Below, one piece after another: positions 2,636 to 24,768 of a stretch of DNA of 25,782 nt. Every line of letters begins with the position of its first letter. Positions within the stretch are counted from its first letter, which is position 1. The notes under the pieces are model-generated. The model made no database searches. It saw only the letters and a program-made list of their open reading frames with translations, and was not told the DNA's origin. A program made the translations under genes and the position numbers. This DNA comes from a virus, in the IMG/VR virus record IMGVR_UViG_3300025083_004076, positions 1 through 25,782 of that record. The stretch is one strand, 5' to 3'.

Positions 2636-3366
2636 AAAAATTAATACCCCTGCTATTGCCAATATTTGTTATATCTTGTTTTTGTAAAGCAGCTATCGTT
2701 ACCTTTACAGGTGGGACGGCAAATTTAGAATCAGGTGGCACTATAATCACAACTACGACTTCTAAAAATTATGGAGTCATTAGCTATCAAGAGCAGTCTG
2801 TTATTCTTGAATATGTTTCGCCTACCGAAGATTGGAGTTTTCAAACTGTAGGTGATTATTATGATGTGGGGAATGACGTTATTCACGGTCATTGGAATGC
2901 AATCTCTACTATAGAAATTTCTCTTCAAAATAACACTCCTTTTGATTTACAGTATTTTCAAATAACTTCAAATACTTCTGTTGGTGGGCAACCAGCTACA
3001 AATGAAGAGAATATTGGAATTCAAGGTTACTTAAATGGCTCTCCCGCTACAGAGACATATGGTTTACCTAGCGTAGATTGGGGCGCAGGAAGCACTAGAG
3101 ATGTTTTCCTACCCAGCTCTTTTAATAATGTCGATAAAGTTGTTATCTTTGATAGAGGTATATCAGGCGCTCATACTGGAAATTCAGATTGTCCTGATTG
3201 TGGTAATTCAGGTTTTTGTTTTGGAATGGACAATTTTGTGTTTGATGAAGCTGTCCCTAATTCTCTTGTTCAAGGTAATGGGACTACATTACCAGTAGTC
3301 CCAGAAGCTAATTCTTTACTATTTTTAACTGTAGCTTTACTACCTCTATTCAGAAGGAAGCGCTAA
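2632..3366 (+). CDS. Secreted PEP-CTERM protein
   Basis: The 244-aa protein has an N-terminal signal peptide (MKKLIPLLLPIFVIS, with plausible cleavage after A20). It ends with VPE at 223-225, a hydrophobic helix at about 227-240 and a basic tail RRKR. This tripartite end is the PEP-CTERM sorting signal, processed by exosortase in Gram-negative bacteria such as Verrucomicrobiota. The middle is beta-rich and ends in FCFGMDNFVFDE, typical of PEP-CTERM extracellular domains, with cysteines C187, C190 and C196. VISC at 13-16 also fits a lipobox, but the downstream Ala cleavage site suits this family better. The gene ends at TAA 3364-3366, directly abutting the stop of the opposing gene. It is probably captured from a host. 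Confidence 0.75.
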   Translation: MKKLIPLLLPIFVISCFCKAAIVTFTGGTANLESGGTIITTTTSKNYGVISYQEQSVILEYVSPTEDWSFQTVGDYYDVGNDVIHGHWNAISTIEISLQNNTPFDLQYFQITSNTSVGGQPATNEENIGIQGYLNGSPATETYGLPSVDWGAGSTRDVFLPSSFNNVDKVVIFDRGISGAHTGNSDCPDCGNSGFCFGMDNFVFDEAVPNSLVQGNGTTLPVVPEANSLLFLTVALLPLFRRKR

Positions 3367-3618
3367 TTATTGATTGTAAACTTCGCGCTCTAACTTCCTA
3401 TAACGAGCGTCTGAATGCCAAACTTCGTCAGTCTGGGGAGTGTAAACTCCTTCCTCAGTCTGAATCGGCTGACCCGCCTTCAGATTCAAGGAAGACGGCT
3501 GATATATGTTTAAACTGCTTGTTTTCGGTGAGGAGCTGCCCCCGCAAGAAGTCAGCGCGATCACTGGACTCATTGTCGCCAATATCCCGTAGCTTTTCAA
3601 TTTCTTCGATAAGTTCAT
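3367..3618 (-). CDS. Candidate outer-membrane spanin lipoprotein (Rz1-like)
   Basis: The 83-aa product has a basic N-terminus, a hydrophobic stretch and the lipobox LTSC (cysteine 25), followed by GGSSSP and a short periplasmic region ending in DEVWHSDARYRKLEREVYNQ. This is the layout of a small outer-membrane lipoprotein. It is read in a different frame on the same strand as the 89-aa ORF at 3455-3724 and overlaps it by 164 nt, the arrangement of nested Rz/Rz1 spanin pairs that fuse the membranes at lysis. The position next to the holin-like gene agrees. The call is structural and rests on no remembered close homologue. Confidence 0.5.
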   Translation of the reverse strand: MNLSKKLKSYGILATMSPVIALTSCGGSSSPKTSSLNIYQPSSLNLKAGQPIQTEEGVYTPQTDEVWHSDARYRKLEREVYNQ

Positions 3619-3731: not shown

Positions 3732-4532
3732 TTATATACACTCTAAGACTTGTTTCCAATCCATTTCTCCAATCACAGATATCAGCTTTGTAATGTCTGC
3801 TTGGGTAAATTTTTGATACTTGCCCTTAAGTTTTGTGGGCATCGCTATCTGCTTGACTTTCGCACCAGAATTTTCTGCCATTTTGTCAGCAATATCTTTA
3901 AAAGAAACAGAGTTACCAGTCCCAACATTAAAAACCCCACTATTATCGTGATGAAGCATCCTATAATGAACCTCACAAACATCTTCCACATGCACGAAGT
4001 CTCTACTAGCTTTTCCCCTAAATACTTTGATCTCGCCATTTTCTTGAATTTGTTTGATGAATTTGGTTATTGGACTCGCTTGATCCCCTTTATGCTCTTC
4101 ATGTGGGCCATAGACATTAAAGTAGCGAAATCCTTGGTAGGGATGGTCTTCGTTTAAAAGCCAGTTGTCAAACATATATTTGCTATAAGCATAAGGATTT
4201 AGTGGGACGCAGAACTGATCCTCTTCAAAAGTCTCTGCTGCACCATAAACAGAAGCACTACTAGAATATTGGAATTTAATATCCATATTAGCACACAATT
4301 GATAAAGTGTGCCAGAGAATATAAAATTCTCATTTAATATCTTTTTTAAATCAGTCTCCGTGGTGCTTGAATTAGCTCCAAGATGGATAACCGCATCAAT
4401 ACCATTCAAAGGAGGTAAGTTAGCCCCAAACTTAATGTCGTAAGGAACGACCTCTAATCCTCTTTTCTCAAGATAAGGACAGAGATTTTTGCCAATAAAA
4501 CCTTCGCTACCAGTAACTAATACCCTTTTCAC
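3732..4532 (-). CDS. hldD: ADP-L-glycero-D-manno-heptose 6-epimerase (HldD family)
   Basis: This is an extended SDR epimerase of 266 aa, shorter than the roughly 310 aa of the cellular enzyme. The NAD(P)-binding motif GSEGFIG lies at 8-14, SSSASVYG at about 90-97 and the catalytic YxxxK at Y114/K118. The family-specific blocks GFRYFNVYGPHEEHKGD and KLKGKYQKFTQADITKL match HldD closely. The enzyme inverts C6 of ADP-D-glycero-D-manno-heptose, giving the heptose donor for LPS inner core. Translation starts at GTG (4532). The gene is separated from the main glycan cassette and sits near the lysis genes. In the phage it may alter host LPS or supply heptose; substrate use is inferred from family. 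Confidence 0.88.
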   Translation of the reverse strand: MKRVLVTGSEGFIGKNLCPYLEKRGLEVVPYDIKFGANLPPLNGIDAVIHLGANSSTTETDLKKILNENFIFSGTLYQLCANMDIKFQYSSSASVYGAAETFEEDQFCVPLNPYAYSKYMFDNWLLNEDHPYQGFRYFNVYGPHEEHKGDQASPITKFIKQIQENGEIKVFRGKASRDFVHVEDVCEVHYRMLHHDNSGVFNVGTGNSVSFKDIADKMAENSGAKVKQIAMPTKLKGKYQKFTQADITKLISVIGEMDWKQVLECI

Positions 4533-4544
4533 AAAGGTATTATA

Positions 4545-5516
4545 TTAGAGTTCGCCTTCGTCCTCTACAATTTCTTTTACTGATTCTAAGAATGGATAGC
4601 CATTCAATAAATCTTGATGCTCTGCGAAAGACTCGTCATCCCAACACCACTGAGAAAACTGTTCGTCCTCATCCCAAGCGATGACCTCTTCTGAAGCCAT
4701 TGAACTAACAGGTTTTTTAGACCAAAATTTACAACTCCAGTAACGAGGAGTAGTTTTATCTTTAGCTGTATCGCACTTGTGTCGAGCACGGAAATTACGG
4801 CGACGATCTGGGTCATCACGCTTAATCTCCATGTTAGGGTCACCAAATTTAACCATGATGACGTTGCCAGTTTTGGGGTTCTTTACATAAACGCCAAACT
4901 TCTTTTTGCCACCTTTTAAGCGGAAAGGCTTATTTAAAGTTTTTTTTTCTGCTTCTGTATACTCAAGATCTTCAATGTCTTGATCGGATTGCCCTGAAGC
5001 ATCAACCTTTTGAAGGTCAAGACGAGCGCAAGCAAAATCAAGCTCGTCAAAATCAACAAAGGCGTTGCTTGGGTCTTCCAAATAATAATCCTCAGATCCT
5101 TTGGCAACATCTTGATCTGCTGCGCGGTAAGACTTCTTGACTTTACCTCCACGCACCATCTTTAGGAACATATTAACCCTAGCCATCGCCCACTGACCTC
5201 TAGTCTTACCGGGCCTATGGCTAGAGCTGAATGCACCCGCACCTCGACGGTATATTTTTTTAAGTTGTGTAAGAGAAACTTTTTTAGAATACTTCTCGTT
5301 ATGCTCCTTAACTTTATTCTTAAGGGACGTTATAATCTTCTCTGAAAAAGTAATTTTTTTTCCATCTTTACCCGCACTACCCTTTTTGTTCTTGCTAGAA
5401 CCTTTTTTACGCTCACTAGGCTTTGCTGGAGTTTGTGCTCCACCTTTAGGCCCAGATCGCTTGGCAGCTTGAGACTCAAGAAATTCCTTAGCTTCTTTAG
5501 AGAAATCGTATTCCAT
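4545..5516 (-). CDS. Conserved two-module phage protein of unknown function
   Basis: The product is 323 aa from the ATG at 5516 (a TTG lies just upstream). The first 55 residues are rich in Lys, Ser and Gly. A first module (about 80-120) contains YRRGAGAFSSSHRPG and WAMARVNMFL. A second module (about 206-265) contains FGDPNMEIKRDD, RRNFRARHKCD and YWSCKFW. Both blocks are familiar to me from conserved proteins of large marine and T4-like phages, sometimes linked to head proteins, but no function is established that I can name. The C-terminus is acidic and Trp-rich. It stands between the heptose epimerase and small hypothetical genes. Confidence 0.7.
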   Translation of the reverse strand: MEYDFSKEAKEFLESQAAKRSGPKGGAQTPAKPSERKKGSSKNKKGSAGKDGKKITFSEKIITSLKNKVKEHNEKYSKKVSLTQLKKIYRRGAGAFSSSHRPGKTRGQWAMARVNMFLKMVRGGKVKKSYRAADQDVAKGSEDYYLEDPSNAFVDFDELDFACARLDLQKVDASGQSDQDIEDLEYTEAEKKTLNKPFRLKGGKKKFGVYVKNPKTGNVIMVKFGDPNMEIKRDDPDRRRNFRARHKCDTAKDKTTPRYWSCKFWSKKPVSSMASEEVIAWDEDEQFSQWCWDDESFAEHQDLLNGYPFLESVKEIVEDEGEL

Positions 5517-5531
5517 CAAAGGATGTTACAC

Positions 5532-5714
5532 TTATTTTTTAAAAACTTCGTTATAACTTTGAAGTTTTTCTTCATCAGTCATCTTACTAAGCTTTTGGTC
5601 AACTTCTTGGTTTACCAAGGTAGAAACAATTTCAATCAGCTCGGCAAAAGTTAAATTACTTGTAATATGATTTACGAAGGCTTCACGAAGCTCTTGTTCT
5701 TGCTCTGGAGACAT
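5532..5714 (-). CDS. Small acidic hypothetical phage protein
   Basis: This 60-aa, probably all-helical protein starts MSPEQEQELREAF, with no signal peptide or membrane segment. The ATG shares one base with the stop of the upstream repeat protein (TAATG), which supports it as a real, translationally coupled gene. Short acidic helical proteins of this kind are common in phages; the function is unknown. Confidence 0.6.
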   Translation of the reverse strand: MSPEQEQELREAFVNHITSNLTFAELIEIVSTLVNQEVDQKLSKMTDEEKLQSYNEVFKK

Positions 5715-6109
5715 TATTTCTGTAGCGCTTTACTTTTATAAATCCGTAGATCAGGTTGATTATCCTTCTCTTTGAATTTATTCTTGAAAATAACGATTTC
5801 CGTCTTTTCATCTTTTACCGATAGGCTTCCAGAATAAAAAGGTTTATCGTCACCTTTACGCCACAAAGCCCCGATTTCACGTTCTGACCAGTCATCATTA
5901 GTCTGGGTAGAATCTTGAGGTCTACTCAGATAGATCCGAAGATCAGGTTGGGCATCTTTCTCCTTAAACTTATTCTGAAAAATTACAATTTCAGTCGTAG
6001 AACCAGAAACGGTAAAGTTACCAGAATAAAATGGCTTTTCGCCACCTTTACGCCAAAGAGCACCAACTTCTCGGTCGCTCCATTCACTATTTTTTTTATT
6101 TTCTTCCAT
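5714..6109 (-). CDS. Tandem-duplicated DUF736-like domain protein
   Basis: The 131-aa protein consists of two copies of a 51-residue unit, residues 10-60 and 74-124, each starting WS.RE(I/V)GALWRKG and ending with NKFKEKD.QPDLRIY. I count 38 of 51 positions identical between the copies. The unit resembles single-domain proteins of phages and plasmids with the pattern GALW..., YxSG..., FxNK, PDxRIY, close to the DUF736 type. Between the copies is a polar linker rich in Asp, Ser and Thr. The role is unknown; a small beta-barrel binding protein is likely. The start lies inside the end of the upstream 53-aa gene (14-nt overlap). Confidence 0.65.
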   Translation of the reverse strand: MEENKKNSEWSDREVGALWRKGGEKPFYSGNFTVSGSTTEIVIFQNKFKEKDAQPDLRIYLSRPQDSTQTNDDWSEREIGALWRKGDDKPFYSGSLSVKDEKTEIVIFKNKFKEKDNQPDLRIYKSKALQK

Positions 6110-6257
6110 GAGCCTTTAAGTAATCTTTGATTAAATGTTTTTTGTCGTGAGGGAGTTCAGTATACCGCTTTTTAACACGCTTGTAAACTCTTTTCATGAC
6201 GGGGTTTGCTTGAAAGGAAATCAAGCTTCTCAAATATCTTGAAGTAGACCCACTCAT
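6096..6257 (-). CDS. Small basic phage protein (53 aa)
   Basis: A hand translation from the ATG at 6257 gives 53 codons before TAA at 6098-6096. The protein is basic, with VMKRVYKRVKKRYTELPHDK in the middle and KDYLKAHGRK at the end, a pattern I recognise in short conserved phage proteins. The ATG shares one base with the stop of the upstream gene (TAATG), and the 3' end overlaps the next gene by 14 nt. Both facts support a real coupled gene. The function is unknown. Confidence 0.65.
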   Translation of the reverse strand: MSGSTSRYLRSLISFQANPVMKRVYKRVKKRYTELPHDKKHLIKDYLKAHGRK

Positions 6258-6466
6258 TACCGACTAAATGAAACCTTGTCAAGGCTGGTTTTAGCGAAAC
6301 GACGAATTAAGCCATTATTTCGGTCAAACACCTGAATATAGTTACCAGTTTCTCCACGGAACTGAGCATTCAAAGTTTCTCCTTGAGTGGTTTGAAGGCC
6401 GAAGAAGCGACCACGGGTTCCACGAATAAGACTTAAGGCAGTTTTCTGCTTTCGATTTAATTTCAT
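6257..6466 (-). CDS. Small basic phage protein (69 aa)
   Basis: The protein is 69 aa, starting with a basic helix (MKLNRKQKTALSLIRGTRGR). A beta-rich region follows with GETLNAQFRGETGNYIQVFD and a closing RRFAKTSLDKVSF. It looks like a small SH3-like or nucleic-acid-associated fold. It is coupled by TAATG to the downstream 53-aa gene. I know no function for it. Confidence 0.6.
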   Translation of the reverse strand: MKLNRKQKTALSLIRGTRGRFFGLQTTQGETLNAQFRGETGNYIQVFDRNNGLIRRFAKTSLDKVSFSR

Positions 6467-6528
6467 AACACGTTATTCTAAGTGGAATTAGGGCTTTGTC
6501 AACTAAAAAGTCAAACAATTCGTCGTGG

Positions 6529-6681
6529 TCAATCGGCTTCGACGCAAAAAATAGGTTCAGCATCTGCTTCAACATCAAAAGGGGCATCCACAGATTCGCA
6601 ATGAAAAACTTTTGTATATCCGTCCCCCTCCATATTGCCCCCACAGTTAGGGCAACAGAAAAACATTTGTTCTCCGTTCAT
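6529..6681 (-). CDS. Small cysteine-rich putative zinc protein (50 aa)
   Basis: Hand translation from the ATG at 6681 to TGA at 6531-6529 gives 50 aa with CCPNCGG (C9, C10, C13), H27-C28 and C46, followed by an acidic end. The CPxCG knuckle with a second Cys/His pair suggests zinc binding. The ATG overlaps the stop of the Clp-like gene as ATGA, so it is the last gene of the replication operon. The 62 nt to the next gene (6467-6528) hold nothing I can identify. Confidence 0.65.
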   Translation of the reverse strand: MNGEQMFFCCPNCGGNMEGDGYTKVFHCESVDAPFDVEADAEPIFCVEAD

Positions 6682-8960
6682 ACTTTAATTTTATTCAGAT
6701 TTATTTCTGAGCAGTTTTCCGTAATTTTTTCGCAAATAAACTTGTTAATATGAGTTTCAAATCGTTCTTCAAAATCAACTAGATTTTTACAGGAGTGAGC
6801 AAACTTCTTCAAAAAGCTCAAGGTGAACACAACCTCTATTTTGTTTAATTGCAGATCATCATTGATTTTTTGCAGTTTATTGTAAAGTATTCTAAAAATA
6901 TCCTTCTTTTTAACCTTCTCCAATAATACATTGCAGTCAACCAAAGATAATAATTCTTTAAAAATAGACGAGGTTGGAGACTCTTTATCGCAATTGAATC
7001 CCATTGATGAAGTATTCTCTACTCCGCTAGTCACAAAAATTTTGACGTTAGAAAAATCAGCTATGTCTCCATTGGACATTTGTAACTTCCCGTCCTTTAG
7101 TATTTGAGCGAATAGACTCTTAACAGACAGGTGTAGCTTATGAAAATCGTCAATAATAATGACGCTATTAGGATAGATGTTAATCTTCTCACATAAAGAA
7201 GTGTTATTCATGACCTCTGGCAAGATTTTAAACTTAGCAAACTCATCTGAGAAATGAACTCCACTGTAATTCAAGACATTCACTCCGCTTTTTTCCAGAG
7301 AGTCCTTTAAAGTGGAGCAGAAAAAACTTTTGCCTGTAGACTCTTCACCAGTAATGCAATAAATGCTCGGAACTGAACTTTTTTTATGTATCCCGTAGCT
7401 TGAAAGTGATATTGATTCGATGAGAGAATCAATAATTTTATTATTCCCCACAAACTTTCCTTTTAAGCTGTGAGATAGGTCTGATAGAATATTTGGCTTC
7501 CGTAAGGGGTTTTCCTTCTTAGAGAAAAACTCCTTCAAGTGTTTTACTGTAACATCTGGTAATGATTCTTCTTTTTCGCTTGCCCAAGAAGATAATTGAT
7601 CAGTAACGAAAGAAAGAACAGAGTCTGCGTCATTAAGGTCGATATCTTTTTCTTTTATATTTTCTTTAATTCCTTTAAGAGAGGAGTCTTGACCCCAATG
7701 AGAAACTTTTGCTTGTGCTCCACAATGATCAATCACATCAATCGCTTTGTCTGGATAAAACTTATTTGGTAAGTATTTCTCACAAAAATTAATAACATTG
7801 TTTATGAAGTTTTCTGTATAACGAACGCAATGAAATTCTTCGTAATATGAGGCAATAACAGGCAATATCTCCTGCATCTGGAACTTGGAAGGTTCCTTAA
7901 TGATAACTCTTTCAAAGCGACGATCTAAGGCAGTGTCTTTTTTAATGGTATTTGTATACTCATTAATTGTGGTTGCCCCAATACAGCTTATAGTACCTCT
8001 TGCTAATTCTGGCTTTAGTATATTCGAAGCTTCCAAAGAGTTTTCTGTTGTCCCTCCTGCTCCCACCAAAGTGTGTATTTCGTCTATAAAGAGAATGATA
8101 TTCTCGTACTTTTTAACCTCATCTACAAATTTCTCTAACCTCTCTTCGAACTGTCCCCTATATTGAGTCCCAGCAACCATGCTAGACAAACTCAAAGAGT
8201 AAATAACCTTGTTTGCAATAAGCTCTGGGGCTTCTCCATTAACAATCTTAGAAGCTAAACCCTCAATCAAAGAGGTTTTGCCTGTCCCTGCTGGCCCTAC
8301 TAAAATTGCATTGGGCTTTTTCTTTCTACAGAGGATCGTGGCTATCTCTGATATTTTATCATCAAAGTCTACAACCTTGTCAAACTCGTCACGAGAAGCT
8401 TTTAAGTTTAAGTTTTCCGCGAATTCATCTAGGATCTTATTTTCGTCAAACATACCAATCCAGTTTCCCATAGGTAGATGGGGATCATCGCTTTCGAAAT
8501 CAAATTCTATTTTTGGCTCTTCCTCATCTTTCAAGAAAAGAGAAATATCAGAAATTAGATCATTACGATCATCTACGTTAAAAACTTCTGCTAAAGCCCT
8601 TGGAGTGTAATCATCGCTCAACATACATAAAAGCATTGACTCCGTGCTTATGTAATCTAACCCAAAAAGCTCTTTCTGGATAAACTCGCAATGATCGATA
8701 AGCTGAGATAGTTTGCTTGAATACTGTCTAGAAACCTCTTTATTTGGCTTTTTGTTTTTAATAACATTTTTCGCAGCTATATTAAGCGCTTTAATGCTAT
8801 CGTATCTTCCTAAAATAGTTTCACATGACAAGCTTATGTCATCCATAAAGCAGGAAAAGAAAATGTCTAAATCAACTTTGTTCCTCTGAAGGTGTTCAGT
8901 TAAGTCTTGGGAACTTTTTAATATAGAGGTGAGTTGAGGAGTGAAGGGTAAGTCATTCAT
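6678..8960 (-). CDS. ClpA/ClpC-like AAA+ protein unfoldase
   Basis: The 760-aa protein has a divergent Clp N-terminal region (about 1-150, with YISTESMLLCML resembling the Clp repeat) and two AAA+ modules. D1 is complete: Walker A GPAGTGKT (222-229), pore loop QYRGQFEERL (about 266-275), Walker B ILFIDEIH (289-296), sensor GATT and Arg finger LDRRFER. D2 has Walker A GEESTGKS (538-545) but Walker B ends IIIDDFH (Asp for Glu), the PEFRNR-type Arg finger is absent, and the GAR sensor-2 motif is lost. At 653-655 the tripeptide MGF lies where ClpA/ClpC carry the ClpP-docking [ILM]-G-[FL] loop. It may feed substrates to host ClpP or remodel replication complexes. It is coupled to the polymerase gene by ATGA. 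Confidence 0.85.
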   Translation of the reverse strand: MNDLPFTPQLTSILKSSQDLTEHLQRNKVDLDIFFSCFMDDISLSCETILGRYDSIKALNIAAKNVIKNKKPNKEVSRQYSSKLSQLIDHCEFIQKELFGLDYISTESMLLCMLSDDYTPRALAEVFNVDDRNDLISDISLFLKDEEEPKIEFDFESDDPHLPMGNWIGMFDENKILDEFAENLNLKASRDEFDKVVDFDDKISEIATILCRKKKPNAILVGPAGTGKTSLIEGLASKIVNGEAPELIANKVIYSLSLSSMVAGTQYRGQFEERLEKFVDEVKKYENIILFIDEIHTLVGAGGTTENSLEASNILKPELARGTISCIGATTINEYTNTIKKDTALDRRFERVIIKEPSKFQMQEILPVIASYYEEFHCVRYTENFINNVINFCEKYLPNKFYPDKAIDVIDHCGAQAKVSHWGQDSSLKGIKENIKEKDIDLNDADSVLSFVTDQLSSWASEKEESLPDVTVKHLKEFFSKKENPLRKPNILSDLSHSLKGKFVGNNKIIDSLIESISLSSYGIHKKSSVPSIYCITGEESTGKSFFCSTLKDSLEKSGVNVLNYSGVHFSDEFAKFKILPEVMNNTSLCEKINIYPNSVIIIDDFHKLHLSVKSLFAQILKDGKLQMSNGDIADFSNVKIFVTSGVENTSSMGFNCDKESPTSSIFKELLSLVDCNVLLEKVKKKDIFRILYNKLQKINDDLQLNKIEVVFTLSFLKKFAHSCKNLVDFEERFETHINKFICEKITENCSEINLNKIKV

Positions 8961-18650: not shown

Positions 18651-19679
18651 CTAATATGCACTCATATCGTTTGCAACCATTTTTCTTACCAAGCCTAAAA
18701 AATCTGTTTTTGGAGACCAGCCAAGCTCTCTTCTGGCTAAGTCAGAATCTCCTAAAAGCAAGTCTACTTCAGCGGGGCGATAAAAAGCTGGGCTAATCTG
18801 GACTAAGATCTTGTCTTCATGGTAATACTTCTCGTTAACACTATAGCCATCCCATCGACATTGATCTTTAGCAAATCCTGCAAAATTGAAAGCCTCCTCA
18901 ACAAATTCTCTAATCGAGTGTGTTTCGTCTGAAGACAAGACATATTCTTTTGGATGCTCTTGGTTGAGCATCAACCAAACACCTTCAACAAAATCTTCAG
19001 CATCGCTCCAATCTCGCTTGGCATCTACATTACCTAACTCAAGAGGCATAAAATCTCCACTAGGGTATTCTTTTTGAATACGAGATACATTTTTGGTAAT
19101 CTTACGAGTTACAAACTCTTCTCCGCGACGAGTTCCTTCATGGTTGAATAACCATCCTTGAATAGCAAACAAATGATAGGAATCTCTCCATACTTTTACC
19201 ATGTGCCTCGCACTAGCCTTAGAAACACCATAAGGGCTTCTTGGTCGCAACGGATGAAGTTCTGACTGTGGAGAATGTAAAACGTCTCCAAACTCCTCTG
19301 AGGAGCCAGCGTTGTAATAACGGCATTTAGGACAATGTTTGCGAATTGCCTCAAGCTGATACATTACAGCCATAGCGTTTGTGTTCATGTGGTTCGCTGG
19401 TTGGGTCCAACTAACCCCCACAAAAGAATTAGCCGCAAAATTAATAAAATAATCTGGCTTCTCTTTAGAGATAACCTCTTCTGTATTTACAGAATCAGTA
19501 ACGTCTAAGTCAATGAGTTTAAAGCGTGGATTATCTACCAGATGAGCAATATTGCCATGATTTTTTACACTTAAACGTCGAACTCCAGCAATAATAGTGT
19601 GTTCAGTATTCTTCAAAAGGTAGTCTGCCATAAAACTACCATCTTGTCCTGTGACTCCTGTGATAATTACTTTTTTCAT
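18651..19679 (-). CDS. gmd: GDP-mannose 4,6-dehydratase
   Basis: The 342-aa SDR has the NADP-binding block TGVTGQDGSFMADYL (G8, G11, G14), FAANSFVGVSW, GSSEEFG (about 125-131), the catalytic YxxxK at Y150/K154 and NHEGTRRGEEFVTRKIT. The last block is diagnostic for Gmd, where it normally reads NHESPRRGETFVTRKIT. It converts GDP-D-mannose to GDP-4-keto-6-deoxymannose, the branch point for GDP-fucose, rhamnose and perosamine. One hand-counted 60-nt line here is about 50% GC, well above the rest of the sugar genes, which suggests a separate origin. Confidence 0.93.
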   Translation of the reverse strand: MKKVIITGVTGQDGSFMADYLLKNTEHTIIAGVRRLSVKNHGNIAHLVDNPRFKLIDLDVTDSVNTEEVISKEKPDYFINFAANSFVGVSWTQPANHMNTNAMAVMYQLEAIRKHCPKCRYYNAGSSEEFGDVLHSPQSELHPLRPRSPYGVSKASARHMVKVWRDSYHLFAIQGWLFNHEGTRRGEEFVTRKITKNVSRIQKEYPSGDFMPLELGNVDAKRDWSDAEDFVEGVWLMLNQEHPKEYVLSSDETHSIREFVEEAFNFAGFAKDQCRWDGYSVNEKYYHEDKILVQISPAFYRPAEVDLLLGDSDLARRELGWSPKTDFLGLVRKMVANDMSAY

Positions 19680-19712: not shown

Positions 19713-20798
19713 TTAATACTCGTTAACTATTTCTACAATGTGATTCATTTCAATTTTAGTCAGCCACCAACCAACTGGTATATTAACCAAACGAGAATCA
19801 AACTCATTTAATTTCTCCAATGATCTATCTTCACCTCCAAAAACAGAATATTTATCATTTCGAACATGAACTCTATCGCAAGAAATACCTTTTGATAACA
19901 AAAACTTAATAAATTTTTTTCTATCATCAACCAATAAAGAATAAATCCAACTTGAACTCCATGTATTGCTTGGATTCCTCATCTTTGTTACCTTTGGATT
20001 TTTTATGGAAACATCGTAGAAAGATTTGTTAGAGATGTGACTGTCTATGATAAAATCAATATGCTCTAGATTATTCAATCCAATAGAAGCATTGATGTTA
20101 TTCATATGGTATTTGTAGCCAGATTCTGGAATATCTTGATCCCACCTACTAAGGCCATTGAATTTTCTATCTAATCCAAACCACCTAATTTTTCTAGCCC
20201 TAATAACATCCTCTTCGGATTTACAAGCTAAAGCTCCTCCATCTCCACAAGTAAGATGTTTAATTGCTTGAAAAGAAAAGCAAACAAAGTCAGAATGATT
20301 GCCTATCTTAACTCCATTATATTCTGAACCTAATGCATGAGCGGCATCTTCGATAACTTTTAAATTAAATTCTTTTGCTATAGAATGAATTTGATCTAAA
20401 TCAACTGGTTGGCCAGCCCAATGAACGACAACAATCGCTTTTGTTTTATCTGTGACCTTAGACCTAACGCTTTTAGGACAAATATTACCAGTTGTGATAT
20501 CAACATCTGCAAAAACCAACTTAGCACCCATATTGAAGAATGGCTCATTTGTAGCCATACAAGTCATTGCTGTTGTAATAACTTCGTCACCAGATTGAAT
20601 ATCAGATAATACTCCAGCTAAATGAAGAGCTGATGTGCCACTGTTAGTTAGGGATACATTTTCATTACCAATATAATCAGAGAAGGCTTTTTCGAATTTA
20701 TCTGAATATTCTCCTTCTGTCAAACATCCTTGAGAAAAAATATTATTCAGATCAAAAACACATTTATCTGACATGAATGGTTTGAAAAGTGGAATCAT
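19713..20798 (-). CDS. DegT/DnrJ/EryC1-type sugar aminotransferase
   Basis: The 361-aa PLP enzyme has a start MIPLFKPFMSDK, TNSGTSALHLAG (about 51-62), VVHWAGQPVDLDQI, EDAAHALGSEYNG and FSFQAIKHLTCGDGG with the Schiff-base Lys at K180. The active Lys is present, so it is an aminotransferase and not a ColD-type dehydrase. It likely aminates a 4-keto-6-deoxy sugar nucleotide, either from the adjacent dehydratase at 20803 or from Gmd (a perosamine-type product). It follows the dehydratase by 4 nt. The exact sugar and nucleotide cannot be read from sequence. Confidence 0.88.
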   Translation of the reverse strand: MIPLFKPFMSDKCVFDLNNIFSQGCLTEGEYSDKFEKAFSDYIGNENVSLTNSGTSALHLAGVLSDIQSGDEVITTAMTCMATNEPFFNMGAKLVFADVDITTGNICPKSVRSKVTDKTKAIVVVHWAGQPVDLDQIHSIAKEFNLKVIEDAAHALGSEYNGVKIGNHSDFVCFSFQAIKHLTCGDGGALACKSEEDVIRARKIRWFGLDRKFNGLSRWDQDIPESGYKYHMNNINASIGLNNLEHIDFIIDSHISNKSFYDVSIKNPKVTKMRNPSNTWSSSWIYSLLVDDRKKFIKFLLSKGISCDRVHVRNDKYSVFGGEDRSLEKLNEFDSRLVNIPVGWWLTKIEMNHIVEIVNEY

Positions 20799-20802
20799 AA
20801 AA

Positions 20803-21819
20803 TCATTCTACTAACCAATGAGGATTTTTTAAAGTCCAATTTACTGTTTTCTCAAGACTTCTCCTGAAATCAACAGGAACAGACCAACCCAAGTTTTCCA
20901 ATTTATCTCCATTTAATGCATACCTTAAATCATGCCCCGGCCTTTTAGAATGATAATCTGTCATTTCATAATCAGCTTTTTTACCCATGATATCAGAAAT
21001 GATTTCAACCACTTCTAAATTAGAAAGTTCCTCACAACCTGCAATGTTGTAACGACCCTTTGAAGAATCGTGGTTGTCCAACAATTCAGTTGTATTCTGC
21101 AATACATAAATGAAGGCATCAGCTACATTTCTAGCATGGATATAAAATCTACTTCCAGCCTTTGTTTTGTCTGGGTAAGAATGGATGTAAATTTTTTCAT
21201 CATTAAGGATTGATTTAATTACTTTTGGAATAAATTTTTCTGCATGTTGTCTTTCACCAATAATATTCATCGTATTGGTTATGACAATAGGGAGTCCATA
21301 AGTATTACAGTATGATTCGCAAAGCGTTTCTCCAGTAGCTTTAGAAGCGGAATAGGGATTACCACAATTGAATCTATCCCCTTCTTTATAGGAGAAGCCC
21401 TCTTCAGCATTACCAAAAACTTCGTCTGTAGAAAAATACATAAACTTTTCTAAATTAGTGCATTTTTGTCTTGCGAATTCAAGAAGGTTCAAAGTTGAGT
21501 CCACATTATTTTTTACAAAATTAACTGGATCAACAATTGAGTTTTCAACATGAGATTCTGCCGCAATATGTAAAATATAATTAACGTCAGATATTTCTTT
21601 TTCCATGCCTTTCGAAATCTCAGAGCAAAGATCAAAAGAAAACATTTTAAAGCGTGGATTTGAGAGGATATTTGTTTCTTGCACTCTTGATAAACCAAAA
21701 GAAGAATAACTTAATTTATCAATACAATAAACATCCCAGTCAGTATTCCTAAATATGTGATCAATCACATGATGACCAACAAATCCACAACCTCCAGTAA
21801 CTAAAGCTTTCTTTTTCAT
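20803..21819 (-). CDS. NDP-sugar 4,6-dehydratase (RmlB-like)
   Basis: The 338-aa SDR has TGGCGFVGHH (G9-G15), AAESHVENSI, the active-site triad STDEVFG (T131, D132, E133), YSASKATGE (Y156, K160), GERQHAEKFIPKVI, SRFYIHARNVADA and RPGHDLRYALNG. The DE pair after Thr defines dehydratases such as dTDP-glucose 4,6-dehydratase. The substrate is probably dTDP-glucose, but UDP- or GDP-sugars are possible. It overlaps the acetyltransferase by ATGA and precedes the aminotransferase, giving the classical order for making a 4-amino-4,6-dideoxy sugar. Confidence 0.87.
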   Translation of the reverse strand: MKKKALVTGGCGFVGHHVIDHIFRNTDWDVYCIDKLSYSSFGLSRVQETNILSNPRFKMFSFDLCSEISKGMEKEISDVNYILHIAAESHVENSIVDPVNFVKNNVDSTLNLLEFARQKCTNLEKFMYFSTDEVFGNAEEGFSYKEGDRFNCGNPYSASKATGETLCESYCNTYGLPIVITNTMNIIGERQHAEKFIPKVIKSILNDEKIYIHSYPDKTKAGSRFYIHARNVADAFIYVLQNTTELLDNHDSSKGRYNIAGCEELSNLEVVEIISDIMGKKADYEMTDYHSKRPGHDLRYALNGDKLENLGWSVPVDFRRSLEKTVNWTLKNPHWLVE

Positions 21820-22298
21820 TTTACCAATTTCATTTTTACAGATTCAAACCCATTAAGAGTAACATCTTCTATCTGAATAAAACCTAATTTTACATAAAGA
21901 GTATACGCTCTGGTGTTTTTTTTATCAACATATAAGAAATATTCATCTTTTTTAACAACAGAAAAGAATTTCTCATAAGCTGGAACAGCAATTTTTCTGC
22001 CTTGGAATTTTTCCTCTATATCAAGGCCAATAAAAAAATTATCGCCCTCATAGCTTGTTCTAAAATACCCAATTTTTTGAGAATCTAACTCTAAAATATA
22101 ATAAATTGAATCAGTTACTTCAAACCAAGATTTACATTCATCAAGAGTATATTGAGTTTTATCATGGAGATACTCACAACAAGAATTCCTCACCTTATTA
22201 AAATAAGGCAAGTCTTCTGACTCCATAACTCTTAAGTTTAATCTATCAAAATATTCTTGAATAGATTTCTGCTCTCCTTGTTTTTTCACTATTGTCAA
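21816..22298 (-). CDS. GNAT-family N-acetyltransferase
   Basis: The 160-aa frame begins at a TTG (22298); the first ATG is at 22226, giving about 136 aa. The core shows a GNAT pattern: LNLRVMESEDLPYFNKVRN, YYILELDSQKIGYFR, FFIGLDIEEKFQGRKIAVPA (acetyl-CoA loop region) and a C-terminal NTRAYTLYVKLGF (acetyl-CoA end motif). It resembles WecD/PseH-type enzymes that N-acetylate amino sugars. The ATG would lose the first beta strand, so the start is uncertain. It is coupled to the dehydratase by ATGA and overlaps the upstream gene by 53 nt if the TTG is used. Confidence 0.8.
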   Translation of the reverse strand: MTIVKKQGEQKSIQEYFDRLNLRVMESEDLPYFNKVRNSCCEYLHDKTQYTLDECKSWFEVTDSIYYILELDSQKIGYFRTSYEGDNFFIGLDIEEKFQGRKIAVPAYEKFFSVVKKDEYFLYVDKKNTRAYTLYVKLGFIQIEDVTLNGFESVKMKLVK

Positions 22299-22935
22299 AA
22301 AGTTTATTTATCTCATGAAATCCAAAGCTTTCTCCAAAACCAACATTTCCTGTAGCTAAGTGATGTTCCAAGGAAAATTTTTCACAAACATTTAGCGGAG
22401 CATAATTAATACCCATGCCTTCAAGTAAAAATCTTAAATACAAGCTAACCGTAACGTCTTCTGGAAAATTTTTTAAACTCTTATTATTAGAAACAAGCTT
22501 TGATACTAACTTAGTGAAATTCTTAGATCTTAAAGAAAACCCACCATTACCATTGACTAAAAATCCAGAGTTATGCATTGGAGCACCAATGAAGTCGTAA
22601 TTTAAAAAATCTTTATCCCACTTATCTGGATTTTCAATAAAGCCATCATGATGAAAATTAATCATAAAATCAGTTTCAAATAACTGATTATAATTGATCA
22701 AAACAAAAACAGAAAAATCTTCGTATTGTATTTCTGGTATCTTTACAATTTCAAAATCTTGTGGATCAACTGAAGGATCTTCGAAAGTATATATCACCTT
22801 TCTGCCAAAATTTATTTTTTTGGAAGAATGTTGCCCTATCTTAATTATCGAGTCTACATCTGTATATCTTGAATCAGATCTATTGCCGACAATAGAGAGA
22901 TAGGTTACATTTGAGAGATCAATTTTCGGCTCCAT
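22246..22935 (-). CDS. DUF5672-like glycosyltransferase
   Basis: The 229-aa protein has the DUF5672 hallmark order: FHHDGFIENPDKWDKDFLNY (about 94-113), YDFIGAP, then GNGGFSLRSKNF (about 129-140) and FPEDVTVSLYLR. The DG and GNGG motifs resemble the metal and donor site of GT-A-like enzymes. It would transfer a sugar in the cytoplasm onto an undefined acceptor. It overlaps the GT90-like gene by 17 nt. The family was called by pattern, without search. Confidence 0.75.
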   Translation of the reverse strand: MEPKIDLSNVTYLSIVGNRSDSRYTDVDSIIKIGQHSSKKINFGRKVIYTFEDPSVDPQDFEIVKIPEIQYEDFSVFVLINYNQLFETDFMINFHHDGFIENPDKWDKDFLNYDFIGAPMHNSGFLVNGNGGFSLRSKNFTKLVSKLVSNNKSLKNFPEDVTVSLYLRFLLEGMGINYAPLNVCEKFSLEHHLATGNVGFGESFGFHEINKLFDNSEKTRRAEIYSRIF

Positions 22936-23866
22936 TATACAATTGGTTATATTTTTCTAAAAGCCAAGAAAAGAAAGTCACATGGGTGGAGTCATCATTT
23001 AAGATTGATGAAAATTGTTTTTGCTTTTCTAATATTTTTTTATCGCGCTCACTATCATTGCTCTTAAAGAATTCTAAAAGGGAATCTACATCAAAGTTTG
23101 GAACAATATTATGGTCGTCTAAAAATTTAGAATACCACAAGTGAGATATTTTTTTAGAACCAAAGTGAATTTTCAGAAGAATTGAGTTCAATCCCATAGC
23201 CCATAAGTTCCTATCCCAAGCAACTGTGTGACCATATATATCAGCTATATATTTAAACGCAGATTGATCTTCCATTGATAAAAAATCACCACTAATGTCA
23301 TCAAAATTAAAACCAAAATGGTCCAAACTAGATTTACAATAATTATCAAACTTAGAAATTTTTAAATCAAAGCCCTCTTCTGAAGAAAATTTATCACAGA
23401 TATTAATCCTTTCATTATGAGATGCAATAGGGTAAGACCCAGTATCTGCACCTCTAAAGACTACAGCATGTTTCTTCTCAGAAAAATCTATTGTATCAAT
23501 CGGCTTATAATTTCTATAAGCAATACAGTAATGGGGATCTGGAACTAAAATATGATTTGAACCAGAGTATTTAGAAAATGTGAATACAGGAAAGTCACTA
23601 AAAACTTCATGGTCAGAAAGGTTTAAAATTAATTTAAAATGAAAGTTCTTCCCAGATATACAGTCTTTTAAGATGCCAACAAAACCATTTAGTCTAACTG
23701 TGTGATTAGAATCTTCTGACTTTATCAAATAAATCGTATCGCCTTTTACTTCAATCAAAACGCAATTATTCGGCAAAGCAAAATCACTGAATTTGCTGAG
23801 TAAAAATGGATCAGAGTTGGATAGCGAAAAGTCTAGAGATTCTTTAATTAAGTCAGACGAATTCAT
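22919..23866 (-). CDS. GT90 (CAP10)-like glycosyltransferase
   Basis: The 315-aa protein contains AVVFRGADTGSYP (about 134-146), FKYIADIYGHTVAWDRNLWA (about 204-223), SILLKIHFGSKKISHLWY and HNIVPNFDVDSLLEFF. This order (FRG, KYIxDxxG, W.R, LK, W, H..VP..) is typical of GT90/CAP10 proteins that transfer xylose or glucose in other organisms. The N-terminal 120 residues are less conserved. It lies between two other glycosyltransferases. It would act in the cytoplasm or on the membrane face to modify a glycan or protein; donor and acceptor are unknown. Confidence 0.75.
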   Translation of the reverse strand: MNSSDLIKESLDFSLSNSDPFLLSKFSDFALPNNCVLIEVKGDTIYLIKSEDSNHTVRLNGFVGILKDCISGKNFHFKLILNLSDHEVFSDFPVFTFSKYSGSNHILVPDPHYCIAYRNYKPIDTIDFSEKKHAVVFRGADTGSYPIASHNERINICDKFSSEEGFDLKISKFDNYCKSSLDHFGFNFDDISGDFLSMEDQSAFKYIADIYGHTVAWDRNLWAMGLNSILLKIHFGSKKISHLWYSKFLDDHNIVPNFDVDSLLEFFKSNDSERDKKILEKQKQFSSILNDDSTHVTFFSWLLEKYNQLYNGAEN

Positions 23867-23867
23867 T

Positions 23868-24707
23868 TTAAACTAAAACCAAATTTGAAAAATTAAAATC
23901 TTGAGAGAAGTCCTCTAGGCCAAGTTTGTAATAACGATATGCATCATTAATATATTTTTCTGAGTTGATGCAGTTTTTTGTAAATGCATCTAAATCATCA
24001 GAGCATATAAAATCAATAACATCATCTACATTGTTTACATCAATATCTTTTGAAAGAAGATGTCGCCTAAAGTTCATCCTTATCCCATGTCTCTTCTTGA
24101 TTAACTCTGGATTATCTTCACAACCCAATTGAACATGAATACTTCCTTTTGTCAGATAGTATCTTAATGCTTGTTTAACAAAATCAAATTCTCCACGTTT
24201 TTCCGATCTCAAATTAGTTCTAATTGGAGTGGAATCAAAAACTTCATTACCATGTAGTTCAATGGCTCTATTGCAACCAACAAGCATTTCATGAATAGAA
24301 TTTTTCCAATACATCCATTCGTTCAACTTAAAAGCCATAAACTTACCTTCATAGTATAAGCCATCTACACCATTATTTTCGAAGATTTCTTTGTGAGATG
24401 ACCAATTCTGCATAAACTCCAGAGATAGTCTCTCCTCTGAGTCTATATTAAAAAACCAATCTCCTTCTCTAATTACATTGCTGAATAAATAATGGTTCCT
24501 TGGGAAGTCATATCTACCCAACCAATCTGTATAGATTATTTTACCATCTCCCTTCACAGACTCCAAGTAATCTGCACCTTCATCTTTTGGGTAATGGAAT
24601 GTCCAAACTAATCCATCAAAATAATCTTTAATTGGATCAATTAATTCTTTTAAATTTTGCTCATTACCTTCATTGGTAATTCCACATAACCAAACTTTAT
24701 TTTTCAT
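23868..24707 (-). CDS. GT2-like glycosyltransferase
   Basis: The 279-aa protein has a GT-A-like start (MKNKVWLCGITNEGNE), a donor-binding acidic motif NVIREGDWFFNIDSEERLS (about 77-95, DSE in place of DxD) and an Arg-rich helix LRSEKRGEFDFVKQALRYYL. The pattern resembles single-domain GT2 enzymes with lDxDE sites. It has no membrane segment. Its ATG is 8 T residues after the AAGGAG in the hairpin at 24716-24746, one of very few genes here with a Shine-Dalgarno. It opens the glycan cassette. Confidence 0.7.
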   Translation of the reverse strand: MKNKVWLCGITNEGNEQNLKELIDPIKDYFDGLVWTFHYPKDEGADYLESVKGDGKIIYTDWLGRYDFPRNHYLFSNVIREGDWFFNIDSEERLSLEFMQNWSSHKEIFENNGVDGLYYEGKFMAFKLNEWMYWKNSIHEMLVGCNRAIELHGNEVFDSTPIRTNLRSEKRGEFDFVKQALRYYLTKGSIHVQLGCEDNPELIKKRHGIRMNFRRHLLSKDIDVNNVDDVIDFICSDDLDAFTKNCINSEKYINDAYRYYKLGLEDFSQDFNFSNLVLV

Positions 24708-24746
24708 AAAAAAAACTCCTTCTAGGTAAGCACGACCTAGAAGGAG
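24708..24746 (-). terminator. Intrinsic terminator with embedded AAGGAG
   Basis: On the minus strand a perfect 12-bp stem (arms 24735-24746 and 24716-24727, loop of 7 nt) is followed by eight T residues (24715-24708), then ATG at 24707. This is a classical Rho-independent terminator for the small heat-shock gene. The 3' arm contains AAGGAG, placed 8 nt before the glycosyltransferase ATG, so stem formation would also hide the ribosome site of read-through message. Confidence 0.85.
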
Positions 24747-24768
24747 CGATATAAGTCACTTCAAAGTT

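Follow-up and report, generated by a model that had tools for sequence, protein, structure and literature searches.

A phage gene cassette predicted to make and transfer an N-acetylated amino-deoxy sugar

We analysed a 25,782-base stretch of DNA (the window), the entire IMG/VR virus record IMGVR_UViG_3300025083_004076 from a marine bacteriophage, and within it a six-gene cassette for sugar synthesis and transfer at positions 19713-24707. A record of 25.8 kb is probably a genome fragment, less than the whole phage. The cassette reads as a phage-encoded glycosylation system in which an acetamido-dideoxyhexose is made and soluble transferases then build a short glycan, most likely on a virion protein; we put the chance that this whole reading is right at about even. 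The predicted product is a nucleoside diphosphate (NDP)-4-acetamido-4,6-dideoxyhexose; this product and the pairing of enzymes with substrates are inferred from the genes, their families and motifs, gene linkage and a gene fusion. The three-step route to an NDP-4-acetamido-4,6-dideoxy sugar, proposed in a preliminary description of this DNA, was well supported by protein families, motifs, the ranking of the aminotransferase, and the linkage and fusion of the acetyltransferase. Related loci are given below by L numbers.

Cassette layout and the predicted sugar pathway

Six open reading frames (ORFs), all on the minus strand, occupy the interval nearly gap-free, and their outermost ends coincide exactly with 19713 and 24707, the limits first proposed. 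The order of transcription is GT2-like glycosyltransferase, GT90-like glycosyltransferase, DUF5672 protein, GNAT N-acetyltransferase, RmlB-like 4,6-dehydratase and DegT C4-aminotransferase, followed by GDP-mannose 4,6-dehydratase (GMD). The three transferases, which had been said to follow the sugar enzymes, precede them in transcription. The six-gene extent stood, but the adjoining GMD gene (18651-19679, minus strand, 342 aa, PF16363 2e-101) had been missed; it begins about 34 bp past the aminotransferase, and the operon thus runs on. The family assignments were far beyond chance (DegT_DnrJ_EryC1 7e-83, GDP_Man_Dehyd 4.5e-47, GNAT 1e-6 and DUF5672 6e-14), with strong support for the dehydratase, aminotransferase, GMD and DUF5672 protein, adequate support for GNAT and indirect support for the GT2-like and GT90-like proteins.

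The RmlB-like NDP-glucose 4,6-dehydratase (20803..21819, minus strand, 338 aa; TIGR01181 2.7e-73, GDP_Man_Dehyd 4.5e-47) keeps its catalytic elements, STDEVFG (TDE) and YSASK (YxxxK), in alignment with the solved enzymes 2hun and 8du1. Its score against the dTDP-glucose 4,6-dehydratase equivalog TIGR01181 was 246.9 bits, below the cut-off of 365.1 bits, and for this reason its nucleotide was not assigned. A scan of genome contigs with the RmlB-like protein found nothing. In most of the related phage loci an RmlB-type short-chain dehydrogenase/reductase (SDR) adjoins the aminotransferase.

The DegT-family sugar C4-aminotransferase (19713..20798, minus strand, 361 aa, PF01041 7e-83) was ranked against solved structures in the PDB to judge whether it is a sugar or a non-sugar enzyme. 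The closest were AtmS13 (6e-71) and CalS13 (2e-61), with which it aligns over its full length, including the pyridoxal phosphate-lysine stretch fsfqaiKhltcgdgg, and with which it has a C-terminal vnipvgwwlt segment in common. Weaker matches were QdtB, perosamine synthase (2e-39), WecE and PseC homologues, and the non-sugar enzyme AHBA synthase was weaker still (6e-26). By this ranking the aminotransferase groups with sugar enzymes, as the preliminary description supposed.

The GNAT N-acetyltransferase (21816..22298, minus strand, Acetyltransf_3 1.3e-6) spans 160 aa when read from TTG. This TTG is the sole upstream start, the frame overlaps the DUF5672 gene, and no ATG lies ahead of the conserved part, so that the true start is uncertain. 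Its profile matches were weak (spermidine acetyltransferase, RimI and PseH), and it scored 18.4 bits against the PseH equivalog, under the cut-off of 93.1, with relatives at 27 to 40 bits. Decay of the gene was considered on account of the acetyl-CoA loop, which reads QGRKIA, and was rejected: relatives read RGKKLA there, and the LYxKLGF motif is kept.

Its gene neighbourhood was more informative. Among 33 distinct phage loci with the aminotransferase, 17 bear a GNAT gene, and in 16 of the 17 it lies within three genes of the aminotransferase; the chance expectation is 28 % each, giving P of about 1.5e-8 if the loci are independent, an optimistic figure since they are partly related. GNAT occurs on either side of the aminotransferase: the order is GNAT-RmlB-aminotransferase in L004-L007, L016 and, with one gene between, L008, and RmlB-aminotransferase-GNAT in L018, L026, L031 and L032. 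The predicted action of the enzyme on a sugar rests on this linkage and on the fusion to DUF5672 in L007, its own homology being too generic.

In the proposed pathway, the RmlB-like enzyme would convert NDP-glucose, probably dTDP-glucose, to an NDP-4-keto-6-deoxy sugar, the DegT enzyme would place an amine on C4, and GNAT would acetylate that amine to give NDP-4-acetamido-4,6-dideoxyhexose of the Qui4NAc (viosamine) or Fuc4NAc type. Because the equivalog cut-offs were missed, the nucleotide may be dTDP or UDP and the sugar of the gluco or galacto form. The soluble DUF5672, GT90-like and GT2-like proteins would then assemble a short glycan in the cytoplasm of the infected cell, the likeliest acceptor being a protein of the virion.

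The predicted transferases and the DUF5672-GNAT junction

The DUF5672 protein (22246..22935, minus strand, 229 aa, PF18922 5.9e-14) is a probable GT-A glycosyltransferase. It belongs to the family at 52.5 bits, against a PF18922 gathering score of 24.4. A structural model had middling confidence (pLDDT 65.7, pTM 0.71), and its leading structural matches were GT-A or nucleotidyltransferase-like; the best Foldseek match was the PBCV-1 capsid glycosyltransferase (E 1.5e-3), and the best VIA-align match was BoGT6a (Z 8.3, root-mean-square deviation 3.6 over 170 residues). The model suggests a GT-A-like fold; the matches, being of middling Z, point to a common fold but do not assign a function. A single-protein scan of viral contigs with DUF5672 gave no matches.

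In L007, DUF5672 and GNAT form one ORF. By BLAST, the window's DUF5672 matches L007 residues 2-226, and its GNAT frame covers residues 226-360. The window's frames (22246-22298) thus meet at a single residue, with a shift of one base between them at TTTTGA. The two are separate genes in L004-L006. A change of one base, a +1 frameshift and an assembly error would each give the split seen in the window; no other copy of the junction turned up in a scan for one. Of the transferases, DUF5672 is the likeliest to pass on the acetylated sugar, because it is joined to GNAT in L007. A narrower proposal is that the coupled transferase-acetyltransferase, one polypeptide in L007 and a +1 frameshift fusion at TTTTGA in the window, transfers only the acetylated sugar, onto the virion; we regard this as very unlikely. 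The pairing of DUF5672 with the aminotransferase exists in bacteria too: in the Omnitrophota locus L042 (~6000), an aminotransferase that shares 57 % identity with that of the window has a DUF5672 homologue two genes away.

The GT2-like glycosyltransferase (23868..24707, minus strand, 279 aa), the first gene of the cassette, matched the NCBIfam profile of the S-glycosyltransferase SunS at 1.4e-4. A two-sequence profile with its L005 homologue matched the peptide glycosyltransferase SunS at 4e-9 (profile positions 8-184); the protein has no Pfam match and reaches 20.9 of the 350 bits of the SunS equivalog. The GT90-like glycosyltransferase (22919..23866, minus strand, 315 aa) also lacks a Pfam match, and its sole PDB match was POGLUT1 (E 0.098). 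Its AlphaFold model was unusable (pLDDT 32), and profile comparison was used instead: against 14 bacterial proteins matching PF05686, hhalign gave 97.6 % and E 4e-12 over 165 columns, with five unrelated control profiles at 0.1-0.3 %. It has one relative, in L007 (30 %); a single-protein scan of viral contigs and a search among phages gave nothing.

Module exchange and the target of the sugar

Locus L040 has in common with the window the GT2-like protein (81 %), GMD (82 %), Hsp20 (83 %) and UvsX (78 %), and carries different sugar genes, with a DUF5672 homologue at 33 % and without the RmlB-aminotransferase-GNAT module. In L005-L007, seven or eight extra genes, including a PseF-like cytidylyltransferase and a polysaccharide deacetylase, stand between the aminotransferase and GMD. 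Because of this swap and these extra genes, we read the region from ribonucleotide reductase to UvsX as an exchangeable glycan island. GMD, which matched the solved GDP-mannose dehydratase 2z1m at 1.4e-76 and scored 313 of the 415 bits of the gmd equivalog cut-off, is part of the constant edge of this island, outside the aminosugar module, and would feed a separate or additional sugar.

This position of GMD counts against a GDP-perosamine route, in which GMD would supply GDP-4-keto-6-deoxymannose and the aminotransferase and GNAT would make GDP-N-acetylperosamine. The route is favoured by the short distance (~34 bp) from the aminotransferase to GMD, by an alphaproteobacterial locus (L047) in which GMD adjoins such an aminotransferase, and by the lack of a clear GDP-fucose synthase in the window group. 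However, the constant neighbour of the aminotransferase is the RmlB-like gene, GMD lies one to eight genes away from it in L004-L007, L040 has GMD without the aminotransferase, and many loci have no GMD near it. Perosamine synthases, moreover, rank well under AtmS13 (2e-39 vs 6e-71). We consider the perosamine route distinctly improbable.

Three targets had been offered for the sugar: virion proteins, phage DNA and host lipopolysaccharide (LPS). All records searched may be fragments, and absences from them are weak evidence. Among the 518 proteins encoded up to eight genes away from the aminotransferase in 34 phage loci, none had at least four hydrophobic segments, compared with 5 of 86 proteins, in four of nine loci, where related aminotransferases occur in bacteria; the window cassette likewise yielded no multi-pass membrane protein. 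An autonomous O-antigen or capsule pathway is less favoured, because it requires either an exporter or a flippase together with a polymerase, and none of these was near the module. The possibility of host surface remodelling, in which the sugar is fed to the host's own O-antigen or LPS enzymes and alters the surface, for example to exclude other phages, loses ground by the same observation, since neither a lipid-carrier transferase nor any of these proteins lies near the module and some do occur in the bacterial loci. It gains from an HldD-like epimerase in the window, from the PseF-like (pseudaminic acid) cytidylyltransferase, polysaccharide deacetylase and GDP-fucose synthase encoded by relatives, and from the swapping of the module between close relatives such as L040, which resembles a serotype locus. 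We consider host surface remodelling possible, though on balance doubtful. Attachment of the sugar to a hydroxylated base of phage DNA is highly improbable: no member of the thymidylate-synthase family of base hydroxymethylases was found in ten records, in a search that had a working positive control and did not extend to other hydroxylases, and the transferases look like enzymes acting on proteins and glycans, even though an 83 kb relative (G006) has a PhyH-type 2-oxoglutarate dioxygenase and a deoxynucleoside monophosphate kinase (L051 10597-11229, L054 93-659). Thus, of the three targets, a virion protein fitted best and is the probable one, whereas DNA and host LPS made through a pathway of the phage's own were less favoured.

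Several points weigh against the reading of a virion-directed acetamido-dideoxyhexose. The dehydratase, aminotransferase and GNAT all miss their NCBIfam equivalog cut-offs, and AtmS13, the closest solved relative of the aminotransferase, has been proposed to work on a keto-pentose, adding the amine at C4 (PMC10951976). The cassette adjoins DNA replication genes, away from virion genes, and the host's export machinery could make use of the phage's sugar.

Genomic setting and comparison with known systems

The minus strand of the window also encodes DNA polymerase, a DnaB-like helicase, primase, exonuclease and a UvsX-like protein, and the window holds the end of a ribonucleotide reductase gene and Hsp20. 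The cassette is flanked on one side by Hsp20 and on the other by the genes GMD and p148, a pair that precedes UvsX. A search of 50,697 phage records with UvsX gave four matches only, all distant (23-25 % identity), indicating a lineage without a close relative in that collection. A T4-like identity was unsupported for the close group, in which Gp23 was not found. The 83 kb relative encodes tape-measure and minor tail proteins. An ADP-heptose 6-epimerase-like SDR (3732..4532, minus strand, TIGR02197 1.2e-70, under the cut-off) was found in the window, and L007 carries a nucleotidyltransferase of the CTP_transf_like family and a PfkB kinase (5248-7238); together these suggest a heptose branch in these phages. 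A large ATP-dependent protease-like ORF resembling Clp ATPase lies at 6678-8960, and none of its relatives in phage records reaches 60 % identity.

A hairpin with a 13-bp stem and a U-run (24715..24747, minus strand, dG -20.8 kcal/mol) ends at the first ATG of the cassette, and its 3' arm contains an AAGGAG ribosome-binding site. Hairpins are placed in the same way in L004 (~4500-4535), L005 (~3365-3400) and L006 (~5770-5809), with differing stem sequences. The element could be a terminator, a hairpin that hides the ribosome-binding site, or both; hairpins of a similar hiding kind have been described for T4 late genes.

Should the virion be the true target, a bacteriophage of an uncultured lineage carries Mimivirus-type acetamido-dideoxyhexose decoration as an exchangeable module, and glycosylation of the phage coat becomes testable by mass spectrometry. 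DUF5672 would also gain a concrete function, as a glycosyltransferase paired with a sugar acetyltransferase.

The closest enzymes of known structure, AtmS13 and CalS13, differ in belonging to actinobacterial antibiotic pathways. In the cultured Flavobacterium phage vB_FspM_immuto, a 37 % identical aminotransferase stands among annotated glycosyltransferases; this phage belongs to another group, has another gene order and has no RmlB-like gene annotated beside the aminotransferase. The viosamine island of Pseudomonas syringae (vioA, vioB, vioT), through which flagellin is glycosylated and in which transfer requires the acylated sugar (PMC3927599), likewise brings an aminotransferase, an acyltransferase and a transferase together, but it is bacterial and chromosomal and has extra methyl and acyl genes. 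Because no membrane proteins were found near the phage module, soluble glycosylation as in this island fits better than an O-antigen or capsule pathway.

The viosamine cluster of Mimivirus (R141 4,6-dehydratase, L136 aminotransferase and L142 acetyltransferase-glycosyltransferase) resembles the cassette in that the three steps are clustered with glycosyltransferases (PMC10117803, PMC4691112). In L142 a viosamine acetyltransferase is fused with a putative glycosyltransferase domain; some strains encode the two as separate genes (PMC10117803). Mimivirus is, in contrast, a eukaryotic giant virus with a demonstrated fibril glycan, whereas the glycan here is predicted from genes, and the acetyltransferase is N-terminal in L142 and C-terminal in our locus L007. 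Viral clusters for acetamido-dideoxy sugars are already known from Mimivirus; less usual here are the joined transferase-acetyltransferase and the exchange of the module.

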